Shown piece after piece: positions 14,961 to 64,000 of a stretch of DNA of 64,000 nucleotides. The first letter of the stretch is position 1, and the number at the start of each line of letters is the position of its first letter. The stretch spans positions 39,576,753-39,640,752 of the forward strand of contig OY754469.1 of assembly GCA_963575645.1 (NCBI GenBank). The letters are read 5' to 3'. Position numbers and translations under genes: made by a program. Under the pieces are notes generated by a model. That model was not told where the DNA came from. It made no database searches and saw only the letters and a program-made list of their open reading frames with translations. This DNA is from Xanthostigma xanthostigma (lineage: Eukaryota > Arthropoda > Insecta > Raphidioptera > Raphidiidae).

Positions 14961-15012
14961 GTTTTTTAACTAATGTACTCTTTCTTATGTATTGACGTTA
15001 TCAGATCTATGC

Positions 15013-15745
15013 ATTTTTACACGCTTTATATTAACTTCACTTGTAAGTTTGTATGTATGTATGAATGTTTGTTTGTAACCTTCATTTGGACTACAGCAAG
15101 TGGTTTATTACTGTAGTATAATATGCCAGCACTGTAACTACAGTGGTTAGCCGTGCGGTCTAAGGCACGGGTCTTCGCTGACGTCAACTCTCGGAATCAC
15201 GGGTCGTGGGTTCTAATCCCGTCCACGCCGAAAAAAAAAATGATTTTTTTTCGACAAATTTTTGACAATAAATCGAACCAAAAAGTGGAAAATAAATATA
15301 GTTTAAAAAAAACTAAAAAACACGCTTTATATCGAACTAAAAAGTAACAAATATTTTTTTTAAATAAGCTTAAAACAATAATGAATAAAAAATACCCTAT
15401 CTATTCTATTATATTATATCCAATTAATTATTATATGTACTTATTACTATTATTATACTTACCTTCATATTTTTTATCTTTAGCCTTAGTTGCTGCACAC
15501 TGTTTTTTTAATAAAAAAAAAAAAAAAATAATATAAAATACAAGTATATTATTGTGAAAAAAGCGTGGGGCGCTCGATGTACGAAAATGTGGAACAAAGC
15601 GGCCCACGCTTTTTTCACAATAATACTTATATTTTTTATTCATTATTGTTTTAAGCTTATTTTTAAAAAAATATTTTTTACTTTTTAGTTCGATATAAAG
15701 CGTGTTTTTTAGTTTTTTTTAAATTATATTTATTTTTTATGTATG
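15013..15745 (+). mobile_element. tRNA-linked foldback element, copy 1
   Basis: Begins TTTTTACACGCTTTATATTA, carries a Leu-type tRNA-like block (15141-15231), then an AT-rich palindrome whose stem tip is AGCGTGGGGCGC...GCGGCCCACGCT (about 15557-15612). It ends with the complement of the internal CACGCTTTATATCGA segment. Two further copies lie at 16680-17118 (minus) and 56786-57345. The loop sequence reads in the opposite orientation from the other two copies relative to the tRNA block. Confidence 0.75.
15141..15231 (+). pseudogene. tRNA-Leu-like (class II) sequence
   Basis: GTGCGGTCTAAGGC (D-arm), a long variable-arm region and GTGGGTTCTAATCCCGTCC (T-arm) resemble a class II tRNA. The 5' acceptor strand does not pair with TCCACGCCG. 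The same block appears in two other repeat copies, so this is a SINE-like head rather than a tRNA gene. Confidence 0.65.
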
Positions 15746-16679: not shown

Positions 16680-17118
16680 TGAAAAAAAACTAAAAAACAC
16701 GCTTTATATCGAGCTAAAAAGTAAAAAATATTTTTTTAAAATAAGCTTAAAACAATAATGAGTAAAAAATACTAGTATTATTGTGAAAAAAGCGTGGGGC
16801 GCTCGATGTACGAAAATGTGGAACAAAGCGCCCCACGCTTTTTTCACAATAATACTAGTATTTTTTATTCATTATTGTTTTAAGTTTATTTAAAAAAAAA
16901 TATTTTTTAATTTTTAGTTCGATATAAAGCGTGTTTTTTAGTTTTTTTTTCGGCGTGGACGGGATTAGAACCCACGACCCGTGATTCTGTAGTTACAGTG
17001 CTGGCATATTATACTACAGTAATAAACCACTTGCTGTAGTCTAAACGAAGGTTACAAACATACATACATGCATACAAACTTACAAGTGAAGTTAATAATA
17101 TAAAGCGTGTAAAAATCT
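16680..17118 (-). mobile_element. tRNA-linked foldback element, copy 2
   Basis: Inverted copy of 15013-15745. The palindrome is at about 16690-16945 with stem tip GCGTGGGGCGCTCGATG (16789-16850), followed by a shortened tRNA-like block on minus (16947-17010) and the ATAAAGCGTGTAAAAA end. The 5' part of the tRNA-like block is deleted. Confidence 0.75.
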
Positions 17119-17211: not shown

Positions 17212-17284
17212 CCCACGAGGGGCTCGAACCCGCGACCTTCGCGTTGTTAGCAAGACGCTCTAACCAACTGAGCTACGATCGATG
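17212..17284 (-). pseudogene. tRNA-Ile-like sequence
   Basis: On minus, GTAGCTCAGTTGGTTAGAGC and GAAGGTCGCGGGTTCGAGCC match the D- and T-arm regions of eukaryotic tRNA-Ile. The anticodon loop CTAACAA would read AAC, one anticodon stem pair is lost, and the acceptor strands do not pair. Intact A and B boxes but broken stems suggest a SINE head or pseudogene. Confidence 0.7.
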
Positions 17285-19277: not shown

Positions 19278-20354
19278 TGTTACATACTCCCCGCTGGGAC
19301 GACAAAGAATTTCGCGAGACAACAATCGGCTCGTCATTTTAACAATGACACACGGATTGTTGTGGGACAATAACAATATGCGTAGGTAAAAAAGACTTTG
19401 TTGTCAAATTCCGGACAATTAATGCAAGAAAAAGAAATAACTATCCAGCGCATATAAATACAATCGGATAGCTCATACAGAGACAGTGATATATTGTGCT
19501 TCATCGAGTTGTGACATAAATTGACAGTTAGTACCGTGAACAGTCCTAAGGTAACTGCTGAGATAAATAAATACATGAACTGTGTGAATGACTGTACTAG
19601 ATAAATTTTGGTGTGTTCCTGTGTTGTAAATAATCTTGTGTATATAGTCATATTGATATTGATATTGATATTTATTTTCGTCAATTTGTAGATACAAAAT
19701 ATCTTTCTGACATGTCAAGAATAAAAGAAAACAATAGTTAAAAGTTAGACATTAGAATTCATTAATATTATAGAGGCACGCTTCGGTCAGAAATATTTTA
19801 ATTTTCTTTTTAAAAGGAGTTTCCGACAAACTTTTTAAAGATGTGGGCAATTTATTATAAAATTTTTGTGATATGTAATGAAAGTTTTTCTGTGTACTAG
19901 ACAGATGACATTTTGGCAATCGTAATGCTTCTTTATTCCTAGTATTGTAATTATGGTTATTATTACTATTAAAAGATGAGATATTTTGTTTTGCAAACAT
20001 TAACAGATGATATAAGTATAAAGAAGGTAAAGTCATTATTTTAAGATCTCGGAAAAATGGTTTGCAGTGCTCACGAGGTGCAACACGAGCTAAAATGCGA
20101 ATAGCCATTTTTTGTATTTTAAAAACTCTATGTATATGCGTTGAGCTACCTCATAATAGGAGTGTGTAGTGTGTAGTGTACATAAATAGTGACTTTGTAT
20201 TATTTATTACTTATTCTTTTATTTTATTAGTTAGAACTGTTGTTTTGTTTCTGTTACGCTATAAAGAAGTACTTTTCGTTTGTTTGTTTGTTTTGTTAAC
20301 GTTGCACTATTGTAAATAAATATTTTCCACCACGAACTAGAAAGTTTTGTTGCA
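19278..20354 (+). mobile_element. Solo LTR interrupted by a LINE fragment
   Basis: Starts TGTTACATACTCCCC and ends GTTTTGTTGCA, flanked by the 4-bp duplication ATAT (19274-19277 and 20355-20358). A sister LTR at 49402-50013 (minus) shares the collinear segments GTGTTCCTGTG[TC]TGTAAAT, TTTTATTTTATTA, TTTGTTTCTGTTA and TTGTAAATAAATA. In this copy the segment 'TGTGTATATAG / GTGTACATAAATAGTGAC' is split by about 525 bp of minus-strand LINE. A TATA-like GCATATAAATACA lies at about 19450. No internal retrotransposon genes are present. Confidence 0.8.
19645..20170 (-). pseudogene. 5'-truncated jockey/CR1-like LINE, RT C-terminus
   Basis: The minus frame 20108-19752 encodes 118 residues including 'HNYNTRN', 'FYNKLPTSLKSL' and 'LPSLYLYHLLMF', all typical of the C-terminal end of jockey/CR1 reverse transcriptases. 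Reading further upstream on minus gives 'LLWGSSTHIHRVFKIQK', the conserved block before it. The 3' tail is an (ATATCA)n-like microsatellite at about 19650-19675. Only the last ~140 residues remain, so it is dead on arrival. It was inserted into the LTR at 19278-20354. Confidence 0.8.
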
Positions 20355-20562
20355 ATATGATGGGGAGATAGAAGTAGAGCAAAGAAAAACCGGAGCAGCC
20401 GAAAAATGTGCTCTAGAACCTGGGTTCAATGTAACCAACTTATTACTTTGTGACAGCACTCGGCATTTGCCACGTATAAAATAGAAGAAAAATAAAAATA
20501 CGTAAATTTTAAACGCTTTTATTGTTCAATCGAACTAGAAGATAAATATGAGTCACCATATA

Positions 20563-20734
20563 TCCTCGTCAAACAGGAACTCCAAAAACTGCAGCAAAAC
20601 GCTAAGAAACTGATCATTCTCGAAGAGGAGAGAAATTCTATCGGTACATATATTTAACTTTCATAGCCAGATCCTAAGATTATTATTATCTGTGTAATAA
20701 AAACGTTTCAAATTTATTTTAAACATTTAATTAC
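20563..20734 (+). pseudogene. Duplicated fragment of coiled-coil gene exon 4 plus intron
   Basis: 20563-20643 aligns without gaps to the last 81 nt of exon 4 (41574-41654). There are four differences: GAG/GAA, CTG/CTC, CAG/CAA and GCC/GCT. All are synonymous, so the encoded peptide (VKQELQKLQQNAKKLIILEE and on to NSI) is unchanged. The splice donor position keeps GT (GTACAT here, GTATAT in the gene). The following intron piece is recognisable but more diverged and has small indels. It leads into the same SINE at about the same distance. No other exon of the gene was found nearby, so this is a partial copy. Confidence 0.88.
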
Positions 20735-21126
20735 CTATGTAGGCATGCGGGTTGCGTAGTGGTGTGAGCACTAGACTCGCATTCGGGAGTACCGGGTTCG
20801 AAACCCGGCGGGGGCAGATGTAGCTGGGACTTATTCCTGCTGCATCTCGCCGAGAAACGCTAATTCCTGTACCGGCCATCTTGATGAGGTTTTCCGTGGT
20901 TTCCCTCAACAATTCCAGATAAATATCGAGATGGTTTTTTATTCAAGGTCATGGCCGATTACCTGTCAAACTTCTATGCACAAAATTTGCCAACCTTAAC
21001 CTAATTTCCTAAAATTCCTTCATTCGCCCATTGCTATTAAGTGGAAGTTTAAAAATGTTGCAATTAACGGGAAGTGTTATAAATGGAAAATAGTAATGGT
21101 GCGAATTTATGAGTCGAGAAACGGAC
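20735..21126 (+). mobile_element. tRNA-derived SINE, longest copy
   Basis: The head GCGTAGTGGTGTGAGCACTA...GGTTCGAAACCCGGC carries A- and B-box Pol III promoter sequences and a tRNA-Ala-like anticodon region (CTCGCATTC). The body includes TCTCGCCGAGAAACG, ATAAATATCGAGATGG and a 3' part ending in GAGTCGAGAAACGGAC. Other copies lie at 35041-35440 (minus) and 41741-41965 (plus, 3' truncated). Confidence 0.85.
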
Positions 21127-21940
21127 GATAAACGCATTATTATTTAGCGCAAATTTAATTTTAGTACTAGCCTGGACATTGTGTCGGGTTGGCGTGCTTA
21201 CAGTCGTTCTGAATGTCGGCCTGTTCTATCGTGACGACATTCGATGGGGGCGGTGGCGTGAATTTGAATTTACTTTAACGAAACTGGCCATTACTATGCG
21301 CTGATGTAATCGTCCTTTCGGTCGCTGCCGTTCCGTTTTCAACTGTGCACATTTATACACCACTTTAGCGTGAAACTTTTGACGTTTAAATCTATATGAC
21401 ATTTCCTCGTGCAGTCGCTGCAAAGGTTAACCGGGGACAGGAAAACTATACACTTCCGACTTTTGAACACATGTTTTTCTTTAAGTCCTTTCAGCTAAAA
21501 GGCGACTATTAAAAATAATTGAGCTTAAGGCCCCTACACACGAAACAATCCAATATACAGGGATCCTGAAATACGTTCTTTGACTCTTATTTTTTATTCT
21601 TTTAAAATATCCATATCCGAAAGTAGCGGTTTCCAAACTTTGTGCACTAACGCCCCCCTTATAAAAATCTCACCTCTACCCCCCTCCTTTAAAAAATTTA
21701 TAAACAATTTGCAAATAATTTCTTTACTGAGAAAATTACAATAAGGTGGTAAATATATAGTACAGTAGTGAGCAAAAAAATCAGTGTTAATATTATAAAA
21801 TGTTCGTTTTTTGGTAATTTTGTTTGAGCGTTTATTCTTAAAACCATGATTTTATCAGAACAACGACGATATTTGCAAATAGTCTGCGCCCTCGACTTCG
21901 AAAACCGAATTTATTTTTCTCTCTACATTTCAAATATATA
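21127..21940. other. Non-coding, repeat fragments
   Basis: GGCCCCTACACACGAAACAA (about 21533) resembles PIF/Harbinger-type ends (compare 60733). GGTTTCCAAACTTTGTGCA (about 21628) resembles a hAT end. A minus frame at 21226-21423 is open but has no recognisable domain. Confidence 0.35.
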
Positions 21941-22403
21941 AAGACCGCTGCACACGAGGCTAGAAACGCTGCTAGATTCCTTGCTAGATTTGCCTACCAG
22001 TTTTCTAGCGCTAGTTTACTTGATTGCTGTTATAAGTGCTCGCTTCACACGAGACTATTTTTCATTCAAGCTTGTTTTGTGGATAGATCTGGTGCGCGCG
22101 CAGTGACAGTTCGAATATAAACACAGAGGAAAACGTGTTTGTCCTCTGACTCTGACCAGATTGACGCCATGTTGGTTTCTGGCCGTTTCTTCAAGTGCCC
22201 ACGTGAAAAGATACTGCTTCCCGATTGGTTCTTGCTCATACCTAGCAGCAAATCTAGCAGGGAAAATAGCCCCTGTTCTAATTTTAAAACCCTTCTTTTG
22301 AGCTAGCAGGCCAGCCCGCAGTGACGTCATTTCCAGCTTCGTACGTAGCCTACCGGCTAGCAGAACTCCTAGCAGCGTTTCTAGCCTCGTGTGCAGCGGT
22401 CTT
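21941..22403. mobile_element. MITE, 463 bp, TIR AAGACCGCTGCACACGAGGC
   Basis: A terminal inverted repeat of about 35 bp (AAGACCGCTGCACACGAGGC..., mirrored at the right end) encloses a non-coding interior with repeated CTAGCAG and CTAGCA words. Partial family members lie at 7616-7705 and 12200-12491. ORFs on both strands here are incidental. Confidence 0.85.
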
Positions 22404-23315
22404 AAGTTACGCAAAAACACGAACAGTCATTCTTGTAGTATACAAACAAGTGCACACCGAAGCACGTTTGTTTACTCTTGCGTATGTGTCTACAAGTCTG
22501 ACGTTACACTTCAAGCCATCATAGTGGGCAGTGTTTATTGTCGAAAAAAAATGAATATTTTTTTAGTTTTATTATTATCACACAAGGATACTCACGACTG
22601 CAGGAGTCAAGCAAAATATTAATTCCCAAACTAATTTTACAAATTCCTTTTCAAAAAGTATTTCTAAATTTTATTTTTTAGCCAGGTATTCGTATTATTT
22701 TCAGTCTTATTTTTTTATTACTATGATCCTGGGGGGAGGTGTTTACCCCCCCATATCTCCGCCCTTGGTCATACTGCGTCTAAAAGTAATAATTCACGCA
22801 CTAGATAGATATCTACATTAATCATCTATAAAATCGTCATTTTACATGTATAAATACAAAAAATAAAGATTTTAATTTTAGTGCAAAATATAGTTAAAAA
22901 ATTAATTAATAATTGATTAATTAAAACAGACGCTATACTCTGTAAATTTCTGTTCTGCGTTTAAATTAATATTTTAACAAGCTTTTGTTCGTTTTTCAAT
23001 TTGTGTTCGTAATTACTTTCTCGTTACGAACAGATACTTTTATATTAATTAAGACATTGCAAACTGTGTTCATACGTACATGACCCAGATATAAGTTTCA
23101 ACTTTCAATCAATAGTTACAAAGTTTTCTCATCCTTTCGTTAATCTACCAAGTTCAGCTTTTGTATTATGAAACGCCAATTTTCCTGAGCGCTCGATGTC
23201 TAAAGCACTTTTCTGAGTTTAAGAATTGCCGATCGCGTATTCGCCGGGTGTGTGACGGCAGCACCGCTGACCGTCCGTAATTTTTCATACTCATAACATT
23301 ACGTCAATGGAGCAT
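22404..23315. other. No gene recognised
   Basis: AT-rich, with a C/G-run pair (GGGGGGAGG...CCCCCC at about 22731-22752) suggestive of a decayed hAT end. Confidence 0.35.
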
Positions 23316-23872
23316 TTTGAAGTAAAACTTCTTTAGGCACGCTTGACTTAGGGAGTAAGCTGGTAAATGCCTGACGAAAGCGTTTACGGAAGTGCATCAT
23401 CGGACGAGGCGAACGGTACTTGAGAGGGAGATATAAGTTAGTGAAGATAGTATTTGAGAGAGTTACGTTTCGTATATTGGAAGTTGAGAGGGGGATATAA
23501 GTTAGTGAATGCGACAAAGACGGAGCATTAATCGAAATTCTTTTTTTTTTGACAACTATTTGACGTTTAAAATGAAAACAATTGTTTTTGTATCAAAAAT
23601 ACATTTCATCGAATTTTGCTGCATTTTGTAACGGGAAATAATGTAGGTTAGTTAATAAGTCCTTTTAAATTAAATTAATAAATATACATATTTTGCTTAT
23701 TAATTAATTAAAAATTATATTTTAAACATTTCGTCTTTGTAGATATGTGCTACAGAGTGAGGTTATATTGTGTCGTTAAATCAGGATGTCAAATCAAAAT
23801 ATGGTGATATATATATGGCAGGAAGAAGTTTTACTTCAGTCGTGTGGTCTAAAGCACACTCGCTTTTTTTTA
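23316..23872. mobile_element. Repeat family B, copy 1 (GAAGTAAAACTTCTT ends)
   Basis: The left end GAAGTAAAACTTCTTTAGGC and the right end GGCAGGAAGAAGTTTTACTT, then CAGTCGTGTGGTCTAAAGCA, recur at 50995-51585. Left and right ends share a self-complementary GAAGTAAAACTTC core. The copies share GGAGTAAGCTGGT[AG]AATGC and GAGAGGGAGATA inside. Confidence 0.7.
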
Positions 23873-23984
23873 AATGACTAATAATAATTAAACAAAAACT
23901 TTAATTAGGTACCGAAATTTTTATACCCAGTTAGAGTGATATAGTGTTTATGTTTTTGCATTGAAAAACATAATATTGAGTCTG

Positions 23985-25335
23985 TAATAATTTATTATCT
24001 GAGTAAATGTAAAATAAATGTATTGTTCGACGTTTACTTCTACGTAGACTACTAGCGCCGTCAGCGGGAAATAGAGCGAAACTGAGCTGCCTTGTTATTA
24101 TTGTTTTAAACCGCGAAGCTTCTTGATAAAAGATATGGCAGGGAGGGCGACGAAAACGACATCTGACGGCCACATGAAATCATACTCTATAACCGTTGCA
24201 TGATTTAGTCCACAGCTCACGCTGTGATCATTTAAGTTGTCCCCACTCTATACTCTGCATCCGGCCAATAGCGATGTCGTTGATCACATAGCGTTTCCCA
24301 GACTCCTCTATTTCAAATCCGCAGTTGCCAAGCTCAAATCCGACAACCAACAAAAGTAACCAATTGATTTTTCAATTTTTGATTAACAAAACCGAAAATA
24401 CCTGGCTATGATTTACATGTGAACCACATAGATAGACTTTTTAAAAGACCGCGCATACGTGTCAAGCACAAACCTGCACGACCTGCACATCACAAACCTG
24501 CTACCTGCACGATGTCGCACACTAGACCAGCACAAACCAATAAATTTTAGTTCAGCACGGCTAGACAGACATTGCAGGCGACCGACTGACGATCGTTGCT
24601 GGCTGCTGATTGCAGTTGCTGGTCTGATGTGCGTTACAACTTTTGTTCCGTGCTGTGCAGGTCGTGCAGGTTTATGCTTGACAAGCGTGCGCGGTCTTTA
24701 AACTCCTCTGTTTTCGTGTTCGGGTAAAAACACATTCAGCAACAAAACTTTTTGTGCTATCTGCAGTCGGTACAAAAAGATAACTAACCGACCGAACGCT
24801 GAAATTAATAGACACTTTCAAACTCCTGCATTTTATATGCAGCTCCTGCTACTCCCGGCAACTTCAACTAACTCCTCTAAATTCCGGAGGAATGCATTGC
24901 ATTCTCCTGCAGCGCCGTATCCCGGATCGTTAAGGACATTATAGTCCCATTTATAGCAGTCTCGAGGGAAAGAAAAAGTAGCCTGTCTGCTATAAAAAAG
25001 GCTTTACTGCCTACGAACCGCTCTGTTTATCGCAAAAGTTAGGAAAATCCACGAAAATAATATAATAAATGTATATTGTGTTATATTGCCTATTATATTT
25101 TTACGAAAGTGCGACGTGAGAAATATATTCAATTATAATCGAGTTATGTAATACAGTGGGGTCGCGATAATCAAACATTTGTTTAAAGGTAGATAATGTC
25201 ATCCAGGCGAGGCGGCAAGTTTTGAATGCCTGTGGTGAGTTGGTCGTATGATCGCTTACTCGCTAGTACTCATCGTGGAAGTAAACGTCGAATAAGACAT
25301 TTTTTTTACATTTTTTCAGATAATAATTATACGCA
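23985..25335. repeat. Inverted repeat pair, arms about 75 bp, enclosing a MITE
   Basis: 23985-24060 is the inverted counterpart of 25258-25335 (shared GAAGTAAACGTCGAA and TCAGATAATAA words on the plus strand of the right arm). The 1.35-kb unit may be one foldback element. It encloses the MITE at 24444-24699 and no recognisable gene. Confidence 0.55.
24444..24699. mobile_element. MITE, 256 bp, TIR AAAGACCGCGC
   Basis: AAAGACCGCGCATACGTGTC and AAACCTGCACGACCTGCAC at the left are mirrored at the right (GTGCAGGTCGTGCAGGTTTA, then TGCGCGGTCTTT). The TIR is about 45 bp. The interior contains AGCAGCCAGCAACGA-like hairpins. No coding capacity. Confidence 0.85.
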
Positions 25336-26364: not shown

Positions 26365-26729
26365 GTGCAGGAAAGAGAAGGTCATAAAGTTGAGACCATA
26401 TATTTAATACCCTCTATATTACTAGCAAAGATCGACAGAAAGATTTAAACACTACGGTGCAGACATTTATACGTCTGTCTCACTTATTATACTCTGAGTC
26501 TCATGCGCATGTCCGTGAATGGATGCGCGTCAGTTTGCACATGGAACTAAGCTATGAAAGGCGGGTGGCTTGCTCTATTCCACTTTCTAATTGCCCCACT
26601 ACAGACGCGACACTTGCGCGCACAACGGGTCAAGTAAAGAGAAAGAGATAGAAAACAGGCATTTGCTGTCTTACTTCATGAGCCACGCTTCCACTTACGG
26701 CCACTAGTCATATAGAAGTTATAGTCCAA
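26365..26729. other. No gene recognised
   Basis: Contains one open plus frame (26457-26651) with no recognisable domain. Confidence 0.35.
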
Positions 26730-27647
26730 GAGCTAGCTACGGAAATAGGTTTGCAATTTATAGAGCAACGAAATCCCTCTAGTTAGTATGCAACACTATC
26801 ATTATTAATTAATCCGGGCGTCTGGCAGCTGTTCAGCGGTGGGTGTGAGAGTGGATGGGCAACAAAGGGGTTGTAAAATCAATTGAAGGTGTGCAATTTT
26901 TAGAGCTCTGTGTTTGGTGTGATATTATAGCTAATTATGTATTTAATTCGAATACAACAATGCCAGGCGTTTTAATTGGGGGAATAAAGTTCTTAAAAAA
27001 TTAAATAAAAACACTAAAACTTGAATATTAACAATTCGTAATAAATTGTTTCTCAAGATGTAATGAGAATAATGTTTTTTTCAGAATTAATAACAACATT
27101 CATTTTTCCTGCGTAGCTAAGGAAAACTAATTTTGACAAAAATCAAATAAGAGTGAGAGAGAGGGGGTAGCGCAGACGTCGCGTGCAACCCGGGCGGCGC
27201 GAGTTGGAGCCAGTTGCTCTTTGTCGTCGCCTGGCGGGGTGATCGACTGAATATTCGCGCCTGTATTTTTGCACACACGATTCTGAAGATCCACTCTAAT
27301 GAAAAAGTATAGGCCCAGTCCTCTATAAATGAGACGACTTTGGCACTTTTTCCCGCACCTTGGATGTTACCTGGCACTACTTTTCCCCCAATTAAAACGC
27401 CTGGCAATGTTATATTCGAATTAAATACATAATTAGCTATAATATCACACCAAACACAGAGCTCTATAAATTGCACACCTTCAATTGATTTTACAACCCC
27501 TTTGTTGCCCATCCACTCTCACACCCACCGCTGAATAGCTGCCAGGCGCCCGGATTAATTAATAATGATAGTATGACACACTAACTAGAGGGATTTCGTT
27601 GCTCTATAAATTGCAAACCTATTTCCGTAGCTAGCTCTCCGTCTATT
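26730..27647. repeat. Foldback, about 250-bp arms around a 390-bp loop
   Basis: 26730-26985 (AGCTAGCTACGGAAATAGG ... CCAGGCGTTTTAATTGGGGG) is mirrored by 27376-27647 with high identity. The loop holds an AT-rich half and a GC-rich half (about 27165-27265). A minus frame at 27117-27512 runs from the right arm into the loop but contains no domain I recognise. Transcribed through, it would form a hairpin RNA of about 250 bp. Confidence 0.85.
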
Positions 27648-40800: not shown

Positions 40801-43800
40801 TGACGCGCCACTAACTATAATATTGCAGTGTAGCCATGTTTATGAATTGCTAAAAAGCTCGGCTTTGTTTTAGTTATTTCTATTAACATAAGCAAGCTTT
40901 ATACGTTTTGGAAAAAGAAAAATGTTCATAGAATATTCGTTTATATTACCTGAAAATTTTATCAAAATCTGTTTGTCAATTCCAACGTAATAAATGATGG
41001 TGTGCGTCAAAATCACAGATTCCCATAAGACTCCATGTTAAGTGCAGCGAAATAAAATTATCAATATCTTTTTTCAAAGTCAACCAAAAATCACAAAAAT
41101 TTAACTGAGTCATTTTTGAAAAGGTTTTGACATATTTGTAAATTTTCGTAATTTTCTGTTTGTTAATTCATTTATCGAGGGTACTTCCTTAAGGAATACT
41201 TTGAGAACTGTGGCCAGTCTCCAAAGACGGCTGGTTGGCCACGCGAAACAATGTTCGTGGTTACTAATAAGTAAAACGACACGCGAATATCAATAAGATC
41301 GAGATGCGACTCTCTGCGCATGTATCGCGCTTGACGCGAAAGATTGTGTCATCGTTTCCCGTCGCCGTCTCAAGTTTCAAAAGCTACTGACTTTAAACGA
41401 CGGTCTACACAAATCATTAACCGTTTGCGATTTCATCGCCAAGGTCACAAAAGAAATTCTGAACGTGTGCAATAGTCCGGCGCCGTGTTTCGCGAAGCGC
41501 GAACTTCGTTTCTCGGGCTTCGTCAGCTACTCGGCACAAATGGACATGTTCAGTCGATTGCTGAGCGCCACGCTCCTCGTCAAACAGGAGCTGCAAAAAC
41601 TGCAGCAGAACGCCAAGAAACTGATCATTCTCGAAGAGGAGAGAAATTCTATCGGTATATATTTATCTTTCATAGCAGGTCCGAAGATTATTATTGTCTG
41701 TGTAATAAAAAACAACATTTTAAACATTTAATTACATATGTAGCCAAGCGGGTAGCGTAGTGGTTAGAGTACTAGACTCGCATTCAGGAGGTACCGGGTT
41801 CGAATCCCGGCGGAGGCAGATGTGGCTAGGAGTTTTTCCTACTGCTTCTCGCCGAGAAACGGTAAATCCTGTACCGGTCATCTTATTGAGGTTTTCCATG
41901 GATTCCCTCAATAATTCCGGATAAATATCGAGATGGTTCCTTATTCAAGGTCATGGCCGACTGGAGCAATGAACAGGGTTCGTTAAATTATTAATCATGT
42001 GAAATTCAGGATTTGAGTATTAACAAGCTTCAATTAGTAACAACTTTAGGTTTCGTTTAAATTTTGAAAAAAGGTAGTCTTCAGATATCTGCATGTATAT
42101 TTACAGGGACAAGTTAGGTTTCGCAACTTACTGTGAGTTGAATTCTGCAAATGATATTACAAATAGCAAAAATAAATATATGGAACACTAAAAATTTGGT
42201 GCATCATGAAATAATGTTTGCAGCAATCACTAAATCCAAGGTTTCGGTAATTCTAAACATCTGGTATATATGTAAAGTAACTCGTTTTGTTTTCTTTTTG
42301 ACAGTTTGCAACTTAAAGAAAATTTGTGTCTGTCTGACCGTTGGTCCGTTGTTCAGCAAATCAACAAGTTTTGTTTATTTGTCTACAGTTTGTGTTTTGT
42401 TTTCTTTATTCGGCTTGAAATTGTTTCTCAACGACCCGTGCCAAAACAATTTTAAACTAAACTAAACACCGAACTTTCACCCTATAAAACGTAGCTACAC
42501 CATCACTTCCGTAACTAAAATGAGAAAGTCACACTTGAAACTCGGAAAACGTGAGGACAGTTTAAAAATTCTCTATTTTTCACGTCTTAGAACCGTTTTA
42601 TATGTCGCGGTTGAGAACTTGTGAATAGCCGACTTTAGAGTAATATGATGATTACTCTAAGACAAGCCCCCAGTTTCCAGATTCCGATCTGGGAACTGAT
42701 AAAAAGATTTTCAATTTATTATTAAAAAATATAAATTGGAAATTATATGAATTGACGCTAGACCCAAATAACTCTGGCTAAATTAAAGAAAAAAAAAGAA
42801 AAACATTAACTATGGTTCGAAGATCCCTATTCTGTAAATATATTGCAGATATATTTAAAAAATCAAGTACACTTGCATAGTATTCACCACCATAAAGATT
42901 TTGCTATCATTTTTTTTAAACCAAAAACTATCCTATGTAATGAAATGATGATGATTTTCCTTTATTGTAGACCTCATAATTAATATCCTTAATTTTTCTC
43001 GGTTTTTCCGTGTTGGACAGTGATGAAATCTAGTTAGCATTTCAATGTTTTATGGGAATTAGCACTCCCAGGAATCCGAGTTTGTACCAATCGGTTTGTG
43101 TATGTTGGCTGGCAGAATCTCTAATACACACATAAACGCTGATGACCTCAGCTATCGATGGTCAATAATTAATCTACGATCTAAATCTAGATACCCAACG
43201 TGATAACCCAGCACGGATTGCATAATTATTTCAAAAGTTATTTTTGAACTTATTTTAAATCAAAATGACGTAATTTAGGTGTCGTTTTATTCAAAATTTA
43301 CTGCTCTATTAAAATAATATAAAAAACAATCAAATACCGTGTTTTAAATAGAGTACTTTATTTTTATTTAAAAAGCTGATCATGTGTTGTCACTACCACC
43401 GAAGGAACGCATCAACAGCGATTATTTGATGGCCGTTGAGCGCGAGAAAGTAATGCTCGGCTCGCAGATGAACGAGATCAAGAAGGAGCATCACCTCCTC
43501 AAGAATCGCATCGAGCAATTGAGACGACGAAGCGAAATGAGTAATCAGCAAAACGACAACAGCCAATACAATAATGACGACTCGAACTCCGACATAAATG
43601 CCAACGACAAAACGAGCTATTACAACGATATAGGTATTTATATTGAATTTAGGCATGTTTCGTTGGCGGGTAATTTTGAAGCCACCAGCTGGTCGTAATC
43701 TAGTATGGCAACGATCCTAAAGAAAGATCTCGTTGTCTACAAACTCTTTGCAGCTCTGTGCAGGCGTCGAAACTAAATTCCTCTTCAGGACACCAAATTG

Positions 43801-56317: not shown

Positions 56318-56785
56318 AATATATACATTCGAGGTTCATTGCTTGTTGGACCCACGCGCTTTTCTCTTCCACAGTTCACTGATAAATCTTCGCTAATGAA
56401 CGTTCGTGCCGCAGCCGCCGGGAGGCCGCCGGGCGCTGTATACGGAGCGTGTCGTTCGCAAATGTGTGGGGATCGAGTTAACGAGACTCGCGCCGTAGGC
56501 GCTGCGCCCCCGGTCCTACAATGCATACAGGGTCCGGCGACGGGATCGTAACGAATTTAGTCAATTATAATCCAAAGTCCCACCGTACAAAAGTCTACCG
56601 GGCACGCAACTACAATATTATTATTGAATCAAATCACCATTAAGCATGCTATCTAATTCATTTCTTTTTGACAGATCTTTAGAACAAAAAAAAAACAGCC
56701 TGTTTTTATTTTTGAAACTATAAAGTTTAGAAAAAAAATTATTTTACAAAACTTTCTTGGAAAAAAAGTAGAATAATGAACCATT
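56318..56785. other. GC-rich patch of unknown nature and family A debris
   Basis: 56395-56530 is much richer in G+C than its surroundings and open on both strands, but no domain is recognised. 56640-56785 is a fragment of repeat family A. Confidence 0.4.
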
Positions 56786-57345
56786 TTTACACGCTTTATA
56801 TTAACTTCACTTGTATTTACTTGTATTTATGTATGTATGTTTGTTTGTAAACTTCGTTTGGACTACAGCAAGTGATTTATTACTGTAGTATAATATGCCA
56901 GCACTGTAACAACAGTGGTTAGCCGTGCGGTCTAAGGCACGGGTCTTCGCTGACGTCAACTCTCGGAATCACGGGTCGAAAAAAAATTGTTTTTTTTCGG
57001 CAAATTTTTGAGAATAAATCGAACTAAAAAGGGGAAAATAAATATAGTTTAAAAAAAAACTAAAAAACACGCTTTAGATATATCGAACTAAAAAGTAAAA
57101 AAATATTTTTTTAAAATAAGCTTAAAACAATAATGAATAAAAAATACTAGTATTATTGTGAAAAAAGCGTGGGGCGCTTTGTTCCACATTTTCGTACATC
57201 TAGCGCCCCACGCTTTTTTACAATAATACTAAGTAGTATTTTTTATTCATTATAGTTTTAAACTTATTTTAAAAAAAATATTTTTTACTTTTTAGTTCGA
57301 TATAAAGCGTGTTTTTTAGTTTTTTTTAAACTATATTTATTAAAA
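56786..57345 (+). mobile_element. tRNA-linked foldback element, copy 3
   Basis: TTTTACACGCTTTATATTAA is followed by a tRNA-Leu-like block truncated in the T-arm (56912-56978, ending ATCACGGGTCG then A/T). The palindrome has stem tip GCGTGGGGCGCTTTGTTCC...GCGCCCCACGC (57165-57222). Its loop is the reverse complement of the loop in copy 1, although the tRNA block has the same orientation. Confidence 0.78.
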
Positions 57346-60735: not shown

Positions 60736-61216
60736 TTTACATAAGAAAATATTCGGGAAAAACGTTACCTATTTATTAATTAAACAAACAGGAATAATTG
60801 TTATTATTATTTACACTTATGTCGAGTGCTACCAAAAGTAATTATTGCGGTCATAACGCTTTTCTCGAATATTTTCTTATGTAACCTTATGAAAAGTTTA
60901 TATGTGTTACGCTCAAAGATCGAAAACGCTCAGTGAGCGGAAAAATAGCTCACAACGCGTTGTGGTCACAGTAAAACATCCACAGGGCGAAATTCGTGTT
61001 ATGGCTCTAATGAAAACGCGCACGACGCGTTGTGGCAATCACAGAAAGACCAAATAGCGAAATTCGTGTCGTGGCTGACATGCTATTCGATCTCAACGCG
61101 TTGTTGAAGAAAAGCCATGACGCGTATGGAATATTATTTGATTACGACGCACACTACTTTCCGATATGGATCCTACTAGGCCTAGGCTGGAAACGTTTTG
61201 GTAGATGTCCTTAGTA

Positions 61217-63055: not shown

Positions 63056-64000
63056 GGAAATATTTTTTATTTTATAAAATCACTGCATAACGTGTTTGTC
63101 ATTATTAAATATGTTATACAATTATATAAATTAAAATAAAACGATATTTGTTATTTATTGAGATTTCTTTATATTTAAAAAAATCAAAGTATTAAGTAAT
63201 AAATTACTGAACACAAAACATTAATCATTTGTAAATTATCTACTTATAATTCATTTAAAATAATTAGGGATTTTAATTTTTTTATGACAATTTAAAATTC
63301 TTTCAAGTAATAAAAATATTTAACACAAACACAAATGTTTATTGATCACCAATAAACAACAACAATGTACTTAAATTAATTACTTATATTAAAAATTACT
63401 ATAATTGTGAAAAATAAGTATTTGATTGCTATTTATTTTTACAGGAACGCGTCATGGCTTTTCTTCATTGCCACAACGCGTTGAGATCGAATAGCATGTC
63501 AGCCACGACACGAATTTCGCTATTTGGTCTTTCTGTGATTGCCACAACGCGTCGTGCGCGTTTTCATTACAGCCATAACACGAATTTCGCCATGTGGATG
63601 TTTTATTGTGACCACAACGCGTTGTGAGCTATTTTTCCGCTCACTGAGCGTTTTCGATATTTGAGCGTAACATATGCATGAATAGAGAAAAAAATAGAGA
63701 TTTAGAAAATGTAAAAAAAGTTTTATAAAAAAAATGCATGTAGGTACCTACACTTCTGGTTGAGTTTGAAATACAAAAAAAAAAAATTACCTCAGCAGTT
63801 TTCGGTAGTAAATTTCGAGTTGAATAAAAAACCATTCAAACATTTTTTGAGGCATCAAAAAAATATATACTTTGTATTTGCGAGATATATGAAAAAGATT
63901 TTCTCTCCACCTAATTTCCAAAACTACGTACAGCTAAAATTTCGAAAAAAAATAGTGATATAACTACTGTCAGTCTAGCTTGACAAAGTTTCGTATTACC

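Follow-up and report, generated by a model that had tools for sequence, protein, structure and literature searches.

Partial gene duplicates, or pseudoexons, arise when an exon and a piece of intron are copied apart from the rest of their gene. In SINE/LINE 5′ transduction, unique 5′ sequence is carried with a retroelement and the insert is truncated at its 5′ end. Repeat-mediated break-induced replication with template switching (FoSTeS/MMBIR) is recognized by homologous repeats at donor and target and by an abrupt second junction. Templated sequence insertions of class 2 (TSIPs) have been described as human polymorphisms (Onozawa and Aplan 2016, PMC5110952).

The locus analyzed here lies in a 64,000-nt stretch of DNA (the window) on contig C6 of a 623-Mb genome of 28 contigs. 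The window is eukaryotic by its intron-bearing gene and its SINEs. In it, the end of one exon and the start of the following intron recur about 21 kb upstream of the parent gene. The copy is the same in kind as known partial gene duplicates and pseudoexons; its all-silent pattern of exon differences is unusual and rests on four sites. Like 5′-transduced sequences, it consists of unique 5′ sequence beside a retroelement and is truncated at its 5′ end, but no target-site duplication was found and the target element was lost. Homologous repeats at donor and target and an abrupt second junction in unrelated sequence are shared with FoSTeS/MMBIR, whereas the copied tract is short in our case and the presumed switch point is placed by one shared change in the SINE head. 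The likeness to class 2 TSIPs consists in an insert of distant sequence that has no target-site duplication and whose junction shows added bases and sequence lost locally; in contrast to those human polymorphisms, the present insert is old, is seen in one assembly, and has a SINE family at both donor and target (PMC5110952). Nothing at this locus goes beyond known kinds of genome rearrangement, and it is a well-resolved ordinary example. It is also a compact one, as the sequence to either side of an old ectopic copy can still be read, with a SINE on one side and a broken palindromic element on the other.

The final 81 nt of a coding exon (41574-41654, plus strand) are repeated at 20563-20643 on the same strand, and all 81 positions align without a gap. 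The four substitutions between parent and copy (G>A, G>C, G>A, and C>T) each fall at codon position 3 and are silent, and the translation of the fragment, LVKQELQKLQQNAKKLIILEEERNSI, is the same in both places. The gap-free alignment and the count by codon position thus agree with the earlier note, which had described an 81-nt repeat with four silent third-position changes. The alignment continues into the intron (41655-41743 in the parent, 20644-20742 in the copy, both plus strand) with 7 substitutions in 89 aligned sites and 4 gap events, and the GT donor is present in parent and copy alike, so that the reported intron indels and substitutions and the kept donor were both recovered. The span first given to the feature, 20563-20734, has the right start; its end falls short, as homology reaches 20957 (41959 in the parent) and takes in SINE sequence. 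The homologous block (20563-20957 versus 41574-41959) ends within a tRNA-derived SINE, which makes up its final 215 aligned sites and differs between the two places by 26 substitutions and 1 gap. The match over the entire block is far above chance (E = 4.5e-138 in the within-window comparison). The exon showed no significant deficit of differences relative to the intron (P = 0.54) or to the SINE (P = 0.08).

The parent gene comprises plus-strand open frames between 39136 and 45330, the translated pieces of which are coiled-coil-like; it had weak Pfam matches only, each under its curated cut-off. Read directly from the sequence, the exon end at 41654 is predicted to join in phase to an open stretch beginning at about 43376. 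In the whole genome, an 80-nt query of exon DNA matched 2 places (2 scored), the parent and the fragment, and a 90-aa query of exon protein gave the same 2 places (2 scored). The downstream exon protein (125 aa) matched itself alone (1 match, 18 scored, whole genome). No longer paralogue was found genome-wide with two of the gene's exons searched by protein. Elsewhere in the window there were no further exons of the gene, the remaining DNA matches being repeats or weak, and Pfam matched none of 10 open frames picked across the window as coding neighbors of the copy. The suggestion that the duplicate is an exon of a paralogue therefore finds no support in this genome, where the exon occurs at two places and the downstream exon at one, and it must also contend with a transposon arm directly upstream of the fragment.

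This arm is the left part of a palindromic (foldback-type) interspersed element (20488-20560, plus strand), recognized from its genome matches and cut off after CACCATA. It is followed by two bases, TA (20561-20562, read directly), that belong to neither the element nor the parent exon. The genome held 111 candidates for the element, of which 40 were scored. As the element query was itself cut at 20562, match ends at query positions 200-202 are not evidence alone; the continuation in the fetched loci is. There, the element runs on past the junction point with a conserved stretch of about 25 nt in 18 of 19 distinct junctions, a count that omits 2 matches ending before query position 195. This stretch was absent from both strands of 20500-24000. 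In 6 of 11 loci (L038-L048), or 5 of 10 distinct ones given that L038 and L040 overlap, a reverse-complement arm occurs 142-165 nt further on, and the element is therefore palindromic. The right flank of the copy (21145-21445) is single-copy. Had the insertion been clean, the remainder of the element should lie to the right of the copy. Palindromic DNA is prone to breakage.

On its other side, the copied intron leads into a full-length tRNA-derived SINE (20743-21144, plus strand, start approximate) that ends at the usual 3′ end of its family. The parent intron carries a member of the same family that lacks the 3′ half (41744-41959, plus strand, start approximate), identified by comparison with the family and by a match of its tRNA-like head to Rfam RF00005 at 41752-41811. 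The family is characterized by this tRNA-like head and an ATT-repeat tail. A first look at the genome gave 3441 candidates for the copy SINE query and 3720 for the parent SINE query; 40 were scored for each, and the copy SINE was not among the 40 scored for the parent. Past 41959, a search for a remnant of the missing 3′ half gave a match no better than random stretches when the family majority was used (0.74 of nulls as high) and a borderline one when the copy was used (0.06 of nulls as high). To the right of the break lies an older interspersed repeat (41983-42084, plus strand) with an 83% match on contig C4 and two weaker places; the C4 copy used as a query had 77 genome candidates, of which 40 were scored. 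We found no support for a subfamily to which the truncation of the parent SINE would belong; the comparable breaks each lead into different sequence. Among 30 other listed SINE matches, L076 and the second match of L070 depart within a few bases of the parent break, L077 departs about 20 nt beyond it, into different sequence, and the second SINE of L015 likewise departs near it, again into different sequence.

The SINE bodies at the two places are no closer to each other than random members of the family. Relative to the family majority, the copy differed at 12 of 204 sites and the parent at 14 of 205, and the two differed from each other at 23 of 204. Among 33 neighbors of the copy, the parent came 30th when ranked by raw distance and 25th when ranked on the tree. 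In a larger set with 62 other members it ranked 61st of 63; this second set was picked by likeness to the parent, which biases ranks taken from the parent. Copy and parent had 1 derived site in common, and other members share 0 to 3. In the smaller tree, copy and parent fell into a 3-tip group with a single further member (support 0.15), and the larger tree did not group them. In the head, however, a one-base shortening (GCGGGT.GCG) beside the intron is common to copy and parent and occurs in 0 of 62 other members' starts, 41 of which have the usual form; L074 is also one base short, in a different way. Divergence in the unique part of the block (11 of 170) was not significantly lower than in the SINE (26 of 215; P = 0.08), nor did the intron alone differ significantly from the SINE (P = 0.32). 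There are two possibilities: the SINE entered the intron and copying of the whole block followed soon afterwards, or the tract that was copied stops within the SINE head. We moderately prefer the latter, in which the SINE body at 20.7 kb would be an unrelated resident copy. A template switch just inside the SINE would leave such a shared shortening beside the intron.

Searches for a target-site duplication gave no sign of one. No exact repeat of at least 4 nt joined left ends at 20556-20563 to right starts at 21138-21153, none was found near the left end of the block, and wider searches gave background only, including one 8-mer of background quality inside the SINE. The best upstream match to the copy's right flank (12 nt with 1 mismatch, score 9) lies inside the block and was equaled or exceeded in 4 of 56 nulls. 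A duplication belonging to the parent SINE was likewise not found in the copy's right flank, and downstream of the parent SINE there was a background-level match only. A decayed duplication may nevertheless have escaped notice. In an analysis that retained 33 of 37 SINE matches as near full length, the detector reported duplications in 21 of 32 other SINE members, a figure obtained without a null. The sequence features of class 2, as described for human insertions, are present in the one assembly read: the template comes from a distant region; there is no target-site duplication or poly(A) tract, the right end being the SINE's own ATT tail; and the left junction has non-templated bases (TA, 20561-20562) and lacks the continuation expected of the palindromic element.

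Taken together, these observations make it likely that the copy arose through break repair and is a partial gene duplicate without function. For the more specific version in which a SINE primed the repair, we would put the chances at about even. The break would have fallen in or beside the palindromic element about 21 kb upstream of the gene, and strand invasion by the broken end, which carried the resident SINE, may then have taken place at the homologous intronic SINE of the gene. Synthesis would have run back through the SINE head and about 90 nt of intron into the exon tail, after which the new end would have been attached to the palindromic element at its broken arm and the remainder of that element lost. 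Either the repair of a break or the restart of a replication fork could have carried this out, with entry through SINE homology; we infer the direction of copying, the break, the SINE-primed invasion, and the order of events. Against this origin, a scenario in which block and entire SINE were copied together, not long after the SINE had inserted, fits nearly as well, since the divergence of block and SINE does not differ significantly (P = 0.08, or 0.32 for the intron). The shared head change could date from the insertion of the SINE, as SINE heads vary, and a neutral copy requires all four exon changes to be silent, at a probability of 0.01-0.10.

The nearest rival to SINE-primed repair is a patch-type insertion, in which an end-joined break would have taken up exon, intron, and whole SINE, in the form of either DNA or cDNA, with no SINE-primed invasion, the parent SINE losing its 3′ half later. 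The lack of duplication at the ends, the two extra bases at the left junction, the loss of target sequence, and the lack of a significant difference in divergence between intron and SINE (P = 0.32) are all consistent with such a patch, which we regard as possible though doubtful: it gives no reason for a SINE to lie at, or to mask, the right end, and as the two SINEs have almost no changes in common, it demands copying close after SINE insertion. The same demand, for copying almost immediately after insertion, weighs on retrotransposition with 5′ transduction, in which an unspliced exon-intron-SINE transcript would have been reverse-transcribed from the SINE 3′ end and 5′-truncated in the exon. 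Such a transcript would account for the kept intron, for a block that starts abruptly in mid-exon as after 5′ truncation, and for a full-length copy SINE reaching the usual family 3′ end, and the insert does end at the 3′ end of a retroelement, as expected of LINE-mobilized (class 1-like) transduction. However, a duplication of at least 5 bp around the whole insert was not found, although 21 of 32 other SINE copies have one (no null run), and the right-hand side lacks the remainder of the palindromic element, so that under this origin the target must have lost that part too. We consider this origin unlikely.

The earlier note had offered two explanations for the four silent changes, past selection on the duplicate, for example as an exon of a paralogue, or silent drift in the parent. 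The pattern itself holds; an exon of a paralogue lacks support in this genome, and silent drift in a constrained parent together with chance is enough to produce it. Depending on the mutation model and with the parent taken as the ancestor, 22-39% of random changes to these codons are silent. The probability that all four are silent is 0.002-0.024 if every change fell in a neutral copy, and 0.01-0.10 with a neutral copy, a constrained parent (omega 0-0.2), and equal branches. Simulations used branch lengths of 0.059 (copy SINE versus family majority, the maximum provided that the SINE is at least as old as the block), 0.041 (half of the intron distance), and 0.02. A neutral copy had no amino-acid change in 2.4, 7.9, and 28% of cases, respectively, and none together with at least four silent changes in 0.8, 0.8, and 0.3%. 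When the copy was constrained too, the corresponding values were 52, 63, and 78% and 14, 5.7, and 0.8%. The simulated odds of constraint on both copies versus a neutral copy were thus about 18, 7, and 2 to 1. The silent pattern mildly favors constraint on the copy, and as it was chosen for study because it was striking, any P value is weakened. The silent differences are too few, at four sites, to show that the fragment is used. If the copy is non-functional, the all-silent differences would stem from purifying selection acting on the parent and from chance in the copy, perhaps together with silent changes by which the donor allele already differed from the present parent when copying took place; such changes would add to the pattern even with the copy unselected.

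Could the fragment nevertheless serve, or once have served, as an exon, either in a chimeric transcript or in a paralogue since lost, its amino acids kept by purifying selection? The 0 amino-acid changes, where about 2.5-3.9 are expected in a neutral copy (probability of none, 0.024-0.079 at branch lengths of 0.059 and 0.041), would agree with this, as would the kept GT donor and an open frame at 20496-20657. On the sequence, the putative chimeric transcript would start in or before the palindromic transposon arm and the 27 codons would encode a coiled-coil segment under purifying selection. We think this highly improbable because the fragment has 27 codons only, the open stretch 20496-20657 contains no in-frame ATG (read directly), a transposon arm lies upstream, and neither another exon of the gene in the window nor a longer paralogue in the genome was found. 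If the fragment were expressed, it would be an exon moved to a new place by repair. The case also illustrates that four silent differences may give an impression of selection even where constraint may be confined to the parent.

Several other features of the window were observed. A minus-strand open frame of 132 aa (19752-20150) had no Pfam match at an E value of 0.01 and a best PDB E value of 0.81; its translation looks like the C terminus of a LINE reverse transcriptase. A tRNA-like match on the minus strand at 17217-17275, barely over the Rfam cut-off, may be a tRNA relic or the head of a further SINE. An inverted repeat of 264 nt (26721-26984 and 27383-27646) is 95% identical, and the open frame that overlaps it (27117-27518) had no Pfam match. 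A second inverted pair (60902-61125 and 63447-63675), 96% identical over 229 nt, lies in an AT-rich stretch with 29% G+C. Related repeats, mostly 85-96% alike, occur in both orientations at 15012-15395, 16682-16950, and 56782-57341.
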